In this document: one piece after another, positions 56,085 through 59,911 of the stretch | Layout of the letters: the number at the start of each line of letters is the position of its first letter | How positions within the stretch are numbered: the first letter of the stretch is position 1 | Source: Halanaerobium congolense | Lineage (GTDB): Bacteria; Bacillota; Halanaerobiia; Halanaerobiales; Halanaerobiaceae | Length of the DNA stretch: 64,000 bases | Reading direction: 5' to 3' | NCBI RefSeq assembly: GCF_004366375.1 | Contig: NZ_SOEF01000002.1 | Coordinates: 1 to 64,000, forward strand | The notes under the pieces: model-generated | What the model saw: the letters and a program-made list of their open reading frames with translations, nothing else | Told to the model about the DNA's origin: nothing | Database searches by the model: none | Translations under genes and position numbers: made by a program

Positions 56085-57356
56085 ATGGAACTTCAGAAAA
56101 AACTTGAAATTTTAAGTGATGCAGCTAAATATGATGTTTCCTGTTCTTCGAGCGGCAGCGGCAGTCGTGGTAACAGCAGCAGTTTAGGGAACACTAAAAA
56201 TAGTGGAATTTGTCACAGCTGGACGGATGATGGCCGCTGTGTTTCCCTGCTTAAAATTCTTTTTACAAATTACTGTATTTATGACTGTCAATATTGTGTC
56301 AATAGGGTCAGCAGTGATCGCCCCCGAGCTGCTTTTACGCCGGAAGAAGTTGCTCAGCTGACTGTTGACTTTTATAAAAGAAATTACATAGAAGGATTAT
56401 TTTTAAGCTCTGCAGTTAATAGAGATCCTGACTGGACAATGGAGCAGCTGCTGAGAACTGCCCAACTGCTGAGAAATAAGCATAATTATCAGGGATATAT
56501 TCATTTAAAAGCAATTCCAGGAGCAGATTTCAAATTAATTTATCAGGCGGGCTTATTAGTAGATAGAATGAGCATCAATATTGAACTTCCCAGTGAAAGC
56601 AGCTTAGAGAAATTAGCTCCCCAGAAGAAAAAAGCAGGTATTTTAGCTCCTATGAAAGGAATAGGAAAAGGGATAGAAAATAATCTAATTGAGAGAAAAA
56701 AATATAAGCAGAAAGAAAAATTTGTACCTGCTGGTCAGTCAACTCAATTGATTGTTGGGGCCAGTCCCGAGTCAGATCGTCAGATACTATCACTTTCAGA
56801 AGGATTATATGATCATTTTAATTTAAAAAGAGTATATTATTCTGCTTATTTACCGGTGGGTAATTCTTCTCTTCTGCCTGCACTACCCGGCCCACCATTA
56901 AAGCGCGAACATCGTCTTTATCAAGCCGACTGGTTACTTCGCTATTACGGATTTAAAGCGGGAGAATTGTTGACTCCCAGCAGAGAAAACTTTGATTTAA
57001 AAATTGATCCTAAAGCAGATTGGGCACTTAATAATTTAGATCAATTTCCGGTAGAAATTAATACTGCAGATTATGAGATGCTGCTGCGGGTACCTGGAAT
57101 TGGCCCAGTATCTGCAGCTAAAATAATTAAAGCAAGAAAAGAAACAAGACTAAGCCATTACAATCTAAAGAAAATGAAGATTAGTTTAAAAAGGGCTAAT
57201 TTTTTTATTACCTGTAATGGTAAATATGCAGCTGCAGTCCCTTTTGAGAGTGAAATAATTTACAGCAGATTGGCAGAAAAAGAAAGCCAGCAGCTTTCCT
57301 TATTTACAGAAAATGCGGGCACTGAGCAGGAATGGGAATTAGATAAAGTAAATTAG
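56085..57356 (+). CDS. Radical SAM protein linked to a UDG-like partner (putative DNA modification/repair)
   Basis: A 423-residue radical SAM enzyme with CxxxCxxC in TNYCIYDCQYCVNRVSSDRP (about residue 64) and the following segment EEVAQLTVDFYKRNYIEGLFLSS. It matches the layout of the TIGR03916-type family, which is encoded beside a DUF4130/TIGR03915 protein. The C-terminal region has a helix-hairpin-helix (LLRVPGIGPVSAAKIIKAR), so it may act on DNA. GAAGGG precedes the start. Its partner gene immediately downstream is interrupted by an insertion. Confidence 0.88.
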   Translation: MELQKKLEILSDAAKYDVSCSSSGSGSRGNSSSLGNTKNSGICHSWTDDGRCVSLLKILFTNYCIYDCQYCVNRVSSDRPRAAFTPEEVAQLTVDFYKRNYIEGLFLSSAVNRDPDWTMEQLLRTAQLLRNKHNYQGYIHLKAIPGADFKLIYQAGLLVDRMSINIELPSESSLEKLAPQKKKAGILAPMKGIGKGIENNLIERKKYKQKEKFVPAGQSTQLIVGASPESDRQILSLSEGLYDHFNLKRVYYSAYLPVGNSSLLPALPGPPLKREHRLYQADWLLRYYGFKAGELLTPSRENFDLKIDPKADWALNNLDQFPVEINTADYEMLLRVPGIGPVSAAKIIKARKETRLSHYNLKKMKISLKRANFFITCNGKYAAAVPFESEIIYSRLAEKESQQLSLFTENAGTEQEWELDKVN

Positions 57357-57379: not shown

Positions 57380-57670
57380 ATGAAATCAAAGTTAAATCAA
57401 GGAGCAAAAAAAGTATATGTCTATGATGGAAGTTATCAGGGCCTTTTAACTGCCTTATACTGGAGTTTTAAATTAAAGGAGATTCCAATTAAAATAATTC
57501 CGGAGTCAAAATTTAAAGATGATCTGTTTTATCAAAAAAGAAAAATAAAAACCGATAATGAGAAGGCAGAATTTTTAAGTGAACAGATTAAAAAGTATAT
57601 TTCAAAAAAAGCTCTGCATAATGTTTTTCGGGCCTATCTTTCTGAAACTAAAAAAATAGAACTTACATTT
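57380..57670 (+). pseudogene. 5' part of interrupted DUF4130 (TIGR03915) gene
   Basis: Codons 1-97 of a DUF4130 protein, the UDG-superfamily partner of the upstream radical SAM gene: VYVYDGSYQGLLTALYWSFK, then TDNEKAEFLSEQIKKYISKK. The frame then runs into the mobile element and stops at 57700 after 10 foreign codons. The 3' part resumes at 59395. Excising the element and one ATTT copy gives a continuous 267-codon frame through ELTF-YIFRYLF, a normal length. It is probably inactive, so the repair pair is likely lost in this strain. Confidence 0.85.
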
Positions 57671-57693
57671 AGGACATTTGTCCGGTCCTATTC
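57671..57693 (+). repeat. Left terminal inverted repeat of the element
   Basis: Begins AGGACATTTGTCCG then GTCCTATTC. It contains the dyad GGACA-TT-TGTCC. Confidence 0.8.
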
Positions 57694-57724
57694 TTCCTGA
57701 TTCTTAGTATTTCAAATTGATCTA

Positions 57725-58498
57725 TTATTTATCGTTATCAGAATCAAAATATTCAGGATGATATTTTTCTATCAGCTTCCTGTATTGTTTGATAACAGAA
57801 GCTCCTCTTCCTGTCATATGTTTGATCTGGATTGTGCTCACACCGCGTCTGATAAGGAATTTAACGCGTTCATAGTCCTTGATATATCTATCTACAGCAT
57901 TTAATGAATGATCTGTTTTTCTGGCTATATCAGGTGGCTGCACCTTTTGCTCATAAAGCTCTATTATTGCTTTTTTGTGAGTGGTTCCACGACCCATATC
58001 CAGTATATAACCTTTAAGAGGTAACACATCATCATGAGTTTCATGATATTCACCAATACGCTTTGAAATAGTTGCTGCAGAACGGTTCATTATTGCTGCC
58101 AGTTCCTCAACAGTTAGCATAGCACCCTGTTTTTTGGCTGCTTTGGTCAGCCTGGCAATACGTATCATATCATGTTCTGTTTTGGATACATTCTGCCTTT
58201 TTAATTCTATATCTTCCTCTATAACATAGGGAAGTTCAATAACTTCCTGCTTATATTCTTCACGTTTTTGACCCAGTTTTGGCTTGTTATTCTGGTCGGA
58301 AGTAGCAACCCAGCTTAAACCACCAAACTGATTGGTCTTTTTACGGGGGTGATATTTATACTCTAATTCAACTATATCGTCAGCTATTAGCTCCAATATT
58401 TTATGGCTGCCAAGTAGTTTGTATTCACTCTCTAAAAGTTCAATGATAGCCTGTCTGAAGGTCTTTTTATCCAGGTTAGCAAAAGGGTCCTGTCTCAT
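57725..58498 (-). CDS. DUF1670-like multi-HTH protein, second gene of the element
   Basis: A 257-residue basic protein. Its C-terminal half holds three HTH-like helices in series: LTVEELAAIMNRSAATISKR, PPDIARKTDHSLNAVDRYIK and STIQIKHMTGRGASVIKQYR. It is paralogous to the upstream gene of the element. The N-terminal part (FRQAIIELLESEYKLLGSHK) is of unknown role. It overlaps the first gene by four bases (ATGA), so they are coupled. The family name is from memory. Function unknown: transposition protein, regulator or passenger. Confidence 0.75.
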   Translation of the reverse strand: MRQDPFANLDKKTFRQAIIELLESEYKLLGSHKILELIADDIVELEYKYHPRKKTNQFGGLSWVATSDQNNKPKLGQKREEYKQEVIELPYVIEEDIELKRQNVSKTEHDMIRIARLTKAAKKQGAMLTVEELAAIMNRSAATISKRIGEYHETHDDVLPLKGYILDMGRGTTHKKAIIELYEQKVQPPDIARKTDHSLNAVDRYIKDYERVKFLIRRGVSTIQIKHMTGRGASVIKQYRKLIEKYHPEYFDSDNDK

Positions 58499-59316
58499 TT
58501 TATGACCCCCTTTTTTGCCTCAGTTTTTACTGAAGCTTTTTCTTCGGCTATGTTAACTATGTCAGCAAGTCGCTCTTTATACTCAGAGCTATTATATTTA
58601 AAATACAGTTCGGTATATTCTTTAACCAGTCTTTCTGAAATACCGACTATATGAGCTGTTTCTTTAATTGAAAGCTTATTTTTTATTGCTAGCAATACAC
58701 GTCCAAAATCATTGATATATCGCTTAATTGCTCCAGGAGAATGCCTGGTTTTCCTCTGTATTTCAGAGTAGGTATTATATTCAAGGTACAGTTTGATTAT
58801 CTTAGTTTTATGAGATACTCCGGGTCCTATATCCTGATATGTACCTCGGGTTGGGACATTAAGATCCTGATCTTTAAGTTTTTTGATATCACGTCTGATA
58901 GTTCTTGTAGAAACCTGCAGAATATCAGCCAGATCTTCCTGGGTTAGAAGACCACCCTGATCGAGTGATTCTTCTGTCATTCTCAGTATTTTAACTCTTC
59001 TGAGAGCAGATTTATTCTCTATTCTAAAGAGTGTTTTATCCTCTTTGGTTATTGATTTAGTCAGGGTTACCTGAACCTTTGGTAAATCTTCTAGAACTGG
59101 ACCGTGTTTTGCTTTCTTAGAGATTACAGTCTTAACTATTTTATCTTTTCTTTCTTGATAGGATGGATCATAATGTTTAAGTTGGTAGACTTCATTGGCA
59201 GCTTCTACAATTGCTTTTGCTTCACGTGGTGAATATTCAAATAGTTCTTTAAGAATGTATTCAAATTGACTATCTAAAGTTTTAACTTTTACACGATCAA
59301 GTTCAGTTTTAGACAT
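58495..59316 (-). CDS. DUF1670-like multi-HTH protein, first gene of the element
   Basis: A 273-residue protein with the same plan as its neighbour: an N-terminal helical domain (FEYILKELFEYSPREAKAIV) and three HTH units, LTQEDLADILQVSTRTIRRD, TYSEIQRKTRHSPGAIKRYI and SIKETAHIVGISERLVKEYT. AAGGGGG eight bases before the ATG sets the start. Its promoter region lies between the gene and the right terminal repeat. It looks like a DNA-binding protein; no catalytic residues are recognisable. Confidence 0.75.
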   Translation of the reverse strand: MSKTELDRVKVKTLDSQFEYILKELFEYSPREAKAIVEAANEVYQLKHYDPSYQERKDKIVKTVISKKAKHGPVLEDLPKVQVTLTKSITKEDKTLFRIENKSALRRVKILRMTEESLDQGGLLTQEDLADILQVSTRTIRRDIKKLKDQDLNVPTRGTYQDIGPGVSHKTKIIKLYLEYNTYSEIQRKTRHSPGAIKRYINDFGRVLLAIKNKLSIKETAHIVGISERLVKEYTELYFKYNSSEYKERLADIVNIAEEKASVKTEAKKGVIK

Positions 59317-59371
59317 TTGTTGTTCCCCCTTAACTATATCTTATATCAAACTCTTTTGTTAGTCGAACTTG

Positions 59372-59394
59372 ATTAGGGGCGGACAAATGTCCTT
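59372..59394 (-). repeat. Right terminal inverted repeat of the element
   Basis: The complement of the left end, ending CGGACAAATGTCCTT on the plus strand; the inner part (GATTAGGGG) matches the left repeat with three mismatches. Confidence 0.8.
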
Positions 59395-59911
59395 ATTTTA
59401 TATTTTTAGATATTTATTTACTGGTTTTAAAGTTGGTAAAAGTATAGACGAATTTTTAACCAAAGATTATGTTTTGAAAGTTCAGGAAATGTGTCAAAAA
59501 GTTGCTCGAGAAAGTCATCGACTTAAAGGGTTGATCCGCCTTCAGGAAACAGCTGAGGGTAAATACTATGCTGCTGTAGAACCTGATTATAGGGTATTAA
59601 TATTGCTTGCTTCTCATTTTAAAAATAGATTTTCAACTATGGATTGGATAATTCATGATCTTAAAAGGGAAGAAGCAATTATTTTCTCAGCTGCAGATCA
59701 GGAGTGGCTTTTAATTAATTTAGAAAAAGATTTTATGCCAAAGTTTTCTAAAAAAGAACAGGAAATTCAGAATCTCTGGTGCTCATTTTTCACAGCAGTA
59801 AGCATTCAAAACAGAAAAAATCCTAAAATTCAGCAGCAATTTATGCCAAAAAAATATTGGAAGCATTTGATAGAAACACCAGGAAGCAGCAGGCAATTTA
59901 AATCAAATTAG
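59395..59911 (+). pseudogene. 3' part of interrupted DUF4130 (TIGR03915) gene
   Basis: Carries the C-terminal 170 residues: YIFRYLFTGFKVGKSIDEFL, then GLIRLQETAEGKYYAAVEPD and SHFKNRFSTMDWIIHDLKRE, the conserved DUF4130 blocks. Translation could start at an ATG (59387) inside the terminal repeat, preceded by AGGGGCGG, giving a protein without the N-terminal UDG-like half. More likely it is a dead fragment. It is continuous with the fragment at 57380-57670 when the element is removed. Confidence 0.85.

Follow-up and report, generated by a model that had tools for sequence, protein, structure and literature searches.

What moves a DNA segment whose only genes encode two helix-turn-helix (HTH) proteins of the DUF1670 family? 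The question is raised by an interrupted DUF4130 gene in the window, the whole stretch of 64,000 nucleotides of Halanaerobium congolense DNA analysed here. A first-pass annotation had described the interrupting segment as a mobile element with perfect 14-bp terminal inverted repeats and a 4-bp ATTT target duplication, and had offered a choice between a chemistry not yet described in its two proteins and dependence on another element in trans. The features on which the following argument is built are these:

57380 to 57664, plus strand: 5' part of the DUF4130 gene, which together with 59399-59911 gives a 265-aa protein collinear with that of relatives.
57663 to 57664, no strand assigned: target dinucleotide TT, found at 14 of 14 independent left ends and in the empty sites of the three tested copies.
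57665 to 59398, no strand assigned: mobile element, a net insertion of 1734 bp, identical from the empty sites of three independent copies; should insertion duplicate a target TT, positions 57665-59396 would be the element itself and the TT that follows the duplicate.
57665 to 57670, no strand assigned: left (gene-3') outer end ACATTT, invariant across full copies.
57671 to 57684, plus strand: left subterminal inverted repeat AGGACATTTGTCCG, containing the imperfect palindrome GGACA-TT-TGTCC.
57725 to 58498, minus strand: ORF B, DUF1670 protein of 257 aa (PF07900, E 5e-53; dN/dS 0.05-0.12 between copies).
58495 to 59316, minus strand: ORF A, DUF1670 protein of 273 aa (PF07900, E 3e-53; dN/dS 0.03-0.12; model pLDDT 80.6).
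59380 to 59393, minus strand: right subterminal inverted repeat CGGACAAATGTCCT, placed by sequence and by comparison of ends.
59394 to 59398, no strand assigned: outer end TATTT on the right (gene-5') side, the same at all 7 independent right ends; the TT with which it closes may be a duplicated target.
59399 to 59911, plus strand: 3' part of the DUF4130 gene (PF13566, E 2e-49 on this fragment).

The inverted repeats at 57671-57684 and 59380-59393 are perfect over 14 bp, as first read. In this AT-rich window, one perfect 14-bp inverted pair with a spacing of 1-3 kb was observed against 1.65 expected from shuffles, and the repeat pair alone is thus not above chance and proves nothing. The Halanaerobium congolense genome, however, contains three full copies, on contigs C2 (the window), C6 and C10, which share the same 1724-bp core with 94-96% identity; in addition, C26 carries a left part that is truncated and C50 an end relic of 32 bp. 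The flanks of the full copies are unrelated, except for the constant outer sequences TTACATTT/AGGACA on the left and TGTCCT/TATTT on the right. Relatives show empty sites for all three: the DUF4130 gene reads GAACTTTATATT or a close variant at seven loci, an ECF-transporter-like gene (locus 88-91% identical) reads AATTGCTTT, and a third gene reads AATTTAAATAAA. In each of the three comparisons of occupied with empty site the net insertion is 1734 bp, in the form TT/ACATTTAGG...CCTTATTT/. An insertion sequence is generally recognised by its presence at several unconnected positions, by defined ends and by relatives in which the site is empty, all of which are seen here. Given the three full copies and the empty sites, and not the repeat pair by itself, mobility of the element is practically certain. 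The conditions under which the first-pass annotation would have withdrawn the idea were put to the test and did not overturn it, as further copies share these ends and DUF4130 loci of relatives are unoccupied.

The empty sites bear on the host gene as well. The interruption of the DUF4130 gene is borne out, and the gene is not naturally split in relatives. In silico removal of the element gives an ORF of 265 aa, not the 267 codons first proposed, which reads KKIELYIFRYLF (ELYIFRYLF) across the junction, as in relatives. Directly upstream, window positions 56085-57356 resemble, from the sequence, a radical-SAM protein with a helix-hairpin-helix end. DUF4130 proteins are the usual partners of such radical-SAM proteins, and the partner of this upstream protein is therefore disrupted in the strain.

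The element boundaries have to be redrawn from those derived from an ATTT duplication, which would give an insertion of 1728 bp. Because the empty sites yield the same net 1734-bp insertion (57665-59398) at each locus, ATTT is element sequence, and both ACATTT and TATTT belong to the element. Insertion takes place directly after TT, with a target duplication of at most 2 bp (TT). At 14 independent left ends from several species, TTACATTTA or TTACACTTA stands ahead of the palindrome while the base preceding TT varies, and 7 independent right ends read TTATTT. The frequency of TT in the window is only 0.127 per strand, so its presence at all ends is not due to chance. In other families of the order the left outer end is ACACTT or ACATTT; in one such genome (G023) the same two genes have like ends, TTACACTTA and GCATTT. 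A 2-bp duplication and no duplication at all leave the same sequence, given that the target is TT and the element has TT as the last two letters of its right end.

Apart from ORF A and ORF B, which are paralogous and overlap by 4 bp, the element has no genes. Both proteins score 180-181 bits against PF07900, where the curated cut-off is 25; this is a family annotated in Pfam only as one of unknown function. Between copies, both genes are under purifying selection (dN/dS 0.03-0.12), which indicates that both matter for propagation. DUF1670 is present in 8 of 38 genomes of the order and in 41 of 398 sampled genomes of the phylum. Named records come from Halanaerobium, Moorella and Desulfofundulus, and others from bins or assemblies named Hakubella, Spirochaetaceae, Actinomycetota, Deltaproteobacteria and Cloacimonadota, names that are not vetted for contamination. 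Outside Halanaerobiales the two genes overlap again and are mostly longer, with an ORF1 of about 510-570 aa that holds a degenerate and an intact DUF1670 domain and an ORF2 of about 430-450 aa that holds one. The degenerate N-terminal copy (L060:286-1101, L089:4595-5419, L088:4724-5596) has kept fold residues and lost the D/H/H/Y set described below. Several of these distant pairs are framed by subterminal inverted repeats of their own (GATATGATGGATTAAA, ACCGGTTTAACCCGTAAGG, TATATAATGGTTTAAA), between which two DUF1670 genes and an untranslated leader were seen and no further content. ORF A had no match in viral, plasmid and phage collections, searches of PHROGs and PADLOC gave HTH-level matches only, and an Rfam search of the element for a bridge-RNA-like ncRNA gave none. 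A literature search found no paper naming DUF1670; as far as that literature goes, a DUF1670 pair inside a mobile element is new information.

For either protein, Pfam and NCBIfam gave no match above cut-off to a DDE, serine, tyrosine or HUH catalytic domain and recognised HTH units only; an NCBIfam IS630 match, an HTH resemblance, lies far below cut-off (E 0.014). The AlphaFold2 model of ORF A (mean pLDDT 80.6, pTM 0.43) has an N-terminal domain of two helices, two strands and one helix, followed by three HTH units. At E<=0.001 Foldseek found nothing similar to ORF A or to the N-terminal domain alone. The structure matches of ORF A include no DDE/DEDD (RNase H-like) fold, although such a fold might escape this kind of comparison. 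In VIA-align the top rows belong to HTH or HU/IHF proteins, the HTH parts resembling winged-helix and MarR-type regulators, and sequence matches in the PDB were weak, short or due to chance. Hence the first reading of the cargo, two overlapping paralogous multi-HTH proteins with no recognisable nuclease or recombinase, agrees with domain and fold searches, including the search for a hidden nuclease by HMM and by the structure of ORF A. When the N-terminal domain was folded alone, the ten top Foldseek rows were all of HU/IHF type (E 0.07-0.7, low TM-scores), and comparison with IHF gave Z 6.1 over 41 residues. Profile similarity to HU/IHF is weak and confined to the first two helices, with approximate HU/IHF query sequences. 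These matches are suggestive of a DNA-bending domain. The N-terminal approximately 95 residues may share the helix-helix-strand-arm-strand-helix topology of HU/IHF, but in DUF1670 the domain is fused to three HTH units.

Across 97 DUF1670 domains, D162, G164, H169, H192 and Y200 are 98-100% conserved (ORF A numbering), with R112 and G158 in the same range. Degenerate tandem copies, 44 in number, have kept R112, P155 and G158 but mostly lost D162, H169, H192 and Y200. An active site would be expected to behave in this way, and the D-G-H...H...Y constellation is a candidate for one. The conserved residues lie in or beside the HTH units, with Y200 and H192 placed where many HTH recognition helices have conserved residues, and their conservation could reflect DNA binding. 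In chemical terms the D/H/H/Y set recalls phosphotyrosine chemistry. Its spacing, H169-x22-H192-x7-Y200, resembles the RII-H-Y spacing in the R-K-HxxR-H-Y set of tyrosine recombinases; profile comparison of DUF1670 with an approximate XerD sequence gave no match (E 0.25, N-terminal region only).

Taken together, the DUF1670 pair is probably the transposase of an autonomous insertion-sequence-like element that would represent a new IS family. A transposase role is made likely by the joint inheritance of genes and ends, by the selection acting on the genes and by the conserved constellation. As to the choice between a new chemistry in the pair and dependence in trans, the evidence leans to the pair itself: in different families the ends are found with these genes, purifying selection acts on both of them and D-H-H-Y is conserved. 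In the mechanism that we propose, proteins A and B, each with three HTH units and an N-terminal domain of possibly HU/IHF-like topology, would act as a pair. They would attach to the subterminal inverted repeats and bend them, draw the two element ends into contact, and cut the DNA at the TT dinucleotide and rejoin it there. D162, H169, H192 and Y200 would form the candidate active site, in which Y200 is a possible nucleophile as in tyrosine- and HUH-type enzymes, in a different protein context. More tentatively, DUF1670 may even constitute a new mechanistic class of transposase, distinct from DDE/DEDD, serine, HUH and classical tyrosine enzymes, with a D-G-H...H...Y active site between and within HTH units, an A/B heteromer and recombination at TT, distributed over several phyla and in some lineages inserting against IS4/IS1634 ends. 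Newness refers here to the candidate transposase class and was judged from Pfam and NCBIfam, fold matches and the literature rather than against the listings of ISfinder, whose ISNCY groups include ISA1214; this element came up in a single paper, as one entry in an enumeration.

Known systems resemble the element in part. For IS607, insertion takes place where dinucleotides match, in its case GG, and the overlap is only 2 nt (PMC4058570). The present element likewise points to recombination at a matching dinucleotide with a footprint of at most 2 bp, TT being in the empty site and at the junction with no long duplication; in contrast to IS607, the dinucleotide is TT, no serine recombinase or TnpB domain was found with Pfam and NCBIfam, and there are two paralogous multi-HTH proteins. 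With IS630/Tc1-mariner elements it shares a 2-bp target and HTH resemblance, but the target is TT in three empty sites, not TA, no DDE domain was found, and two proteins are encoded. IS200/IS605 elements and PATEs have comparable subterminal imperfect palindromes and a sequence-specific 5' flank, and the Tyr and two His of DUF1670 are chemically reminiscent of their enzymes; they differ in that no Y1 HUH match was found here (Pfam, NCBIfam), TTAC is missing from the empty sites and the hairpins are weak.

The main alternative is that DUF1670 is an essential accessory that binds and bends the ends, as an IHF-like, targeting or regulatory protein, while cleavage is supplied in trans at the palindromic ends by the DDE transposase of another element or by a host nuclease or recombinase. 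We consider this the less likely reading, although it would fit the lack of a nuclease fold in Pfam/NCBIfam and ORF A fold searches and the HU/IHF type of all ten proteins that match the N-terminal fold best. Outside Halanaerobiales, at least eight loci place the DUF1670 element tail-to-tail with an IS4/IS1634-type DDE element (L120:311-5343, L118:2867-7942, L115, L113, L092/L066, L068, L130 and L141), apparently far more often than by chance, and at L120 and L118 only 3-4 bp separate it from the terminal repeat of its neighbour. Host recombination could, moreover, be the source of the solo palindromes described below. On the other hand, DUF1670 elements and the adjoining DDE elements do not have the same inverted repeats, for which reason a target preference for IS ends, itself a possibility, is favoured over mobilisation. 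In addition, this genome has seven DDE_Tnp_1 matches, all of them away from AGGACAWWTGTCC sites, and the same two genes recur across distant hosts, so that a partner would need to be everywhere. A footprint of at most 2 bp at TT is also ill-suited to IS4 and IS1634, which make longer target duplications.

It is far less probable that an IS200/IS605-type (Y1 HUH) transposase moves the element in trans as single-stranded DNA, in the manner of a PATE, with the palindromes as hairpins and TTAC as target. Both ends do carry subterminal imperfect palindromes, TTAC is invariant at the left flank, and IS200/IS605 copies are common in Halanaerobium hydrogeniformans, where action in trans has been proposed (PMC7290912). 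Yet the empty sites CTTTAT, AATTGC and AATTTAAAT hold TT without AC, and it is this lack of TTAC that makes such an enzyme unlikely. The hairpins are weak and do not exceed those of shuffles (z -0.5 to -1.1), and the DUF1670 genes would be left as unexplained cargo despite the purifying selection on them. A staggered-cut transposon with a 4-bp duplication, suggested by ATTT on both sides of the element in the window, is rejected, given that the same ATTT (within TTACATTT and TATTT) occurs at every locus and is absent from the empty sites, which show that it belongs to the element.

If the DUF1670 pair is a transposase, it would bring an added chemistry and a role for a DUF family present in about one in ten of the sampled genomes of the phylum, and a small, nearly scarless, TT-specific insertion system would be on offer. 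IS finders such as digIS look for known catalytic domains, and elements of this type therefore stay invisible, annotated as hypothetical proteins. The classification of insertion sequences has been built on few transposase chemistries, namely DDE, DEDD, HUH, Tyr and Ser (PMC8147514).

Related genomes also contain about six solo sites, in which a single palindrome stands between the left and right outer ends of the element (TTACATTTAGGACAAATGTCCTTATTT) and genes are absent: G000:C1:37030 (L157:1488-1522), L158, L161, L170, L183 and L186. The centre of the palindrome is AA, the right-end type, in all six, and the site at C1:37030, in the present genome, is an insertion absent from seven relatives. 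These sites are excision scars or minimal derivatives. Left-end relics of about 30-45 bp lie beside the same host gene at the orthologous loci G000:C50:11352-11383 (L005) and G016:C55:5812 (L160), with different outer sequences (TATATAATACC vs TTTATATTT). In a relative, a DDE-transposase IS contains, some 70-80 bp inward from its right end, a CCGGACAAWTGTCCTAA palindrome that resembles the left end of the DUF1670 element (L175 and L181, that is G017:C10 and C11, about position 1500). The flank of the clade-2 element L092 is nested inside another IS and gave no information on an empty site. A stretch of the 5' flank of the DUF1670 element of G308 (L092:1651-2045; G308:C1:660138-683295) recurs more than 250 times with a spacing of about 66 bp, in the manner of a large CRISPR array near the element.
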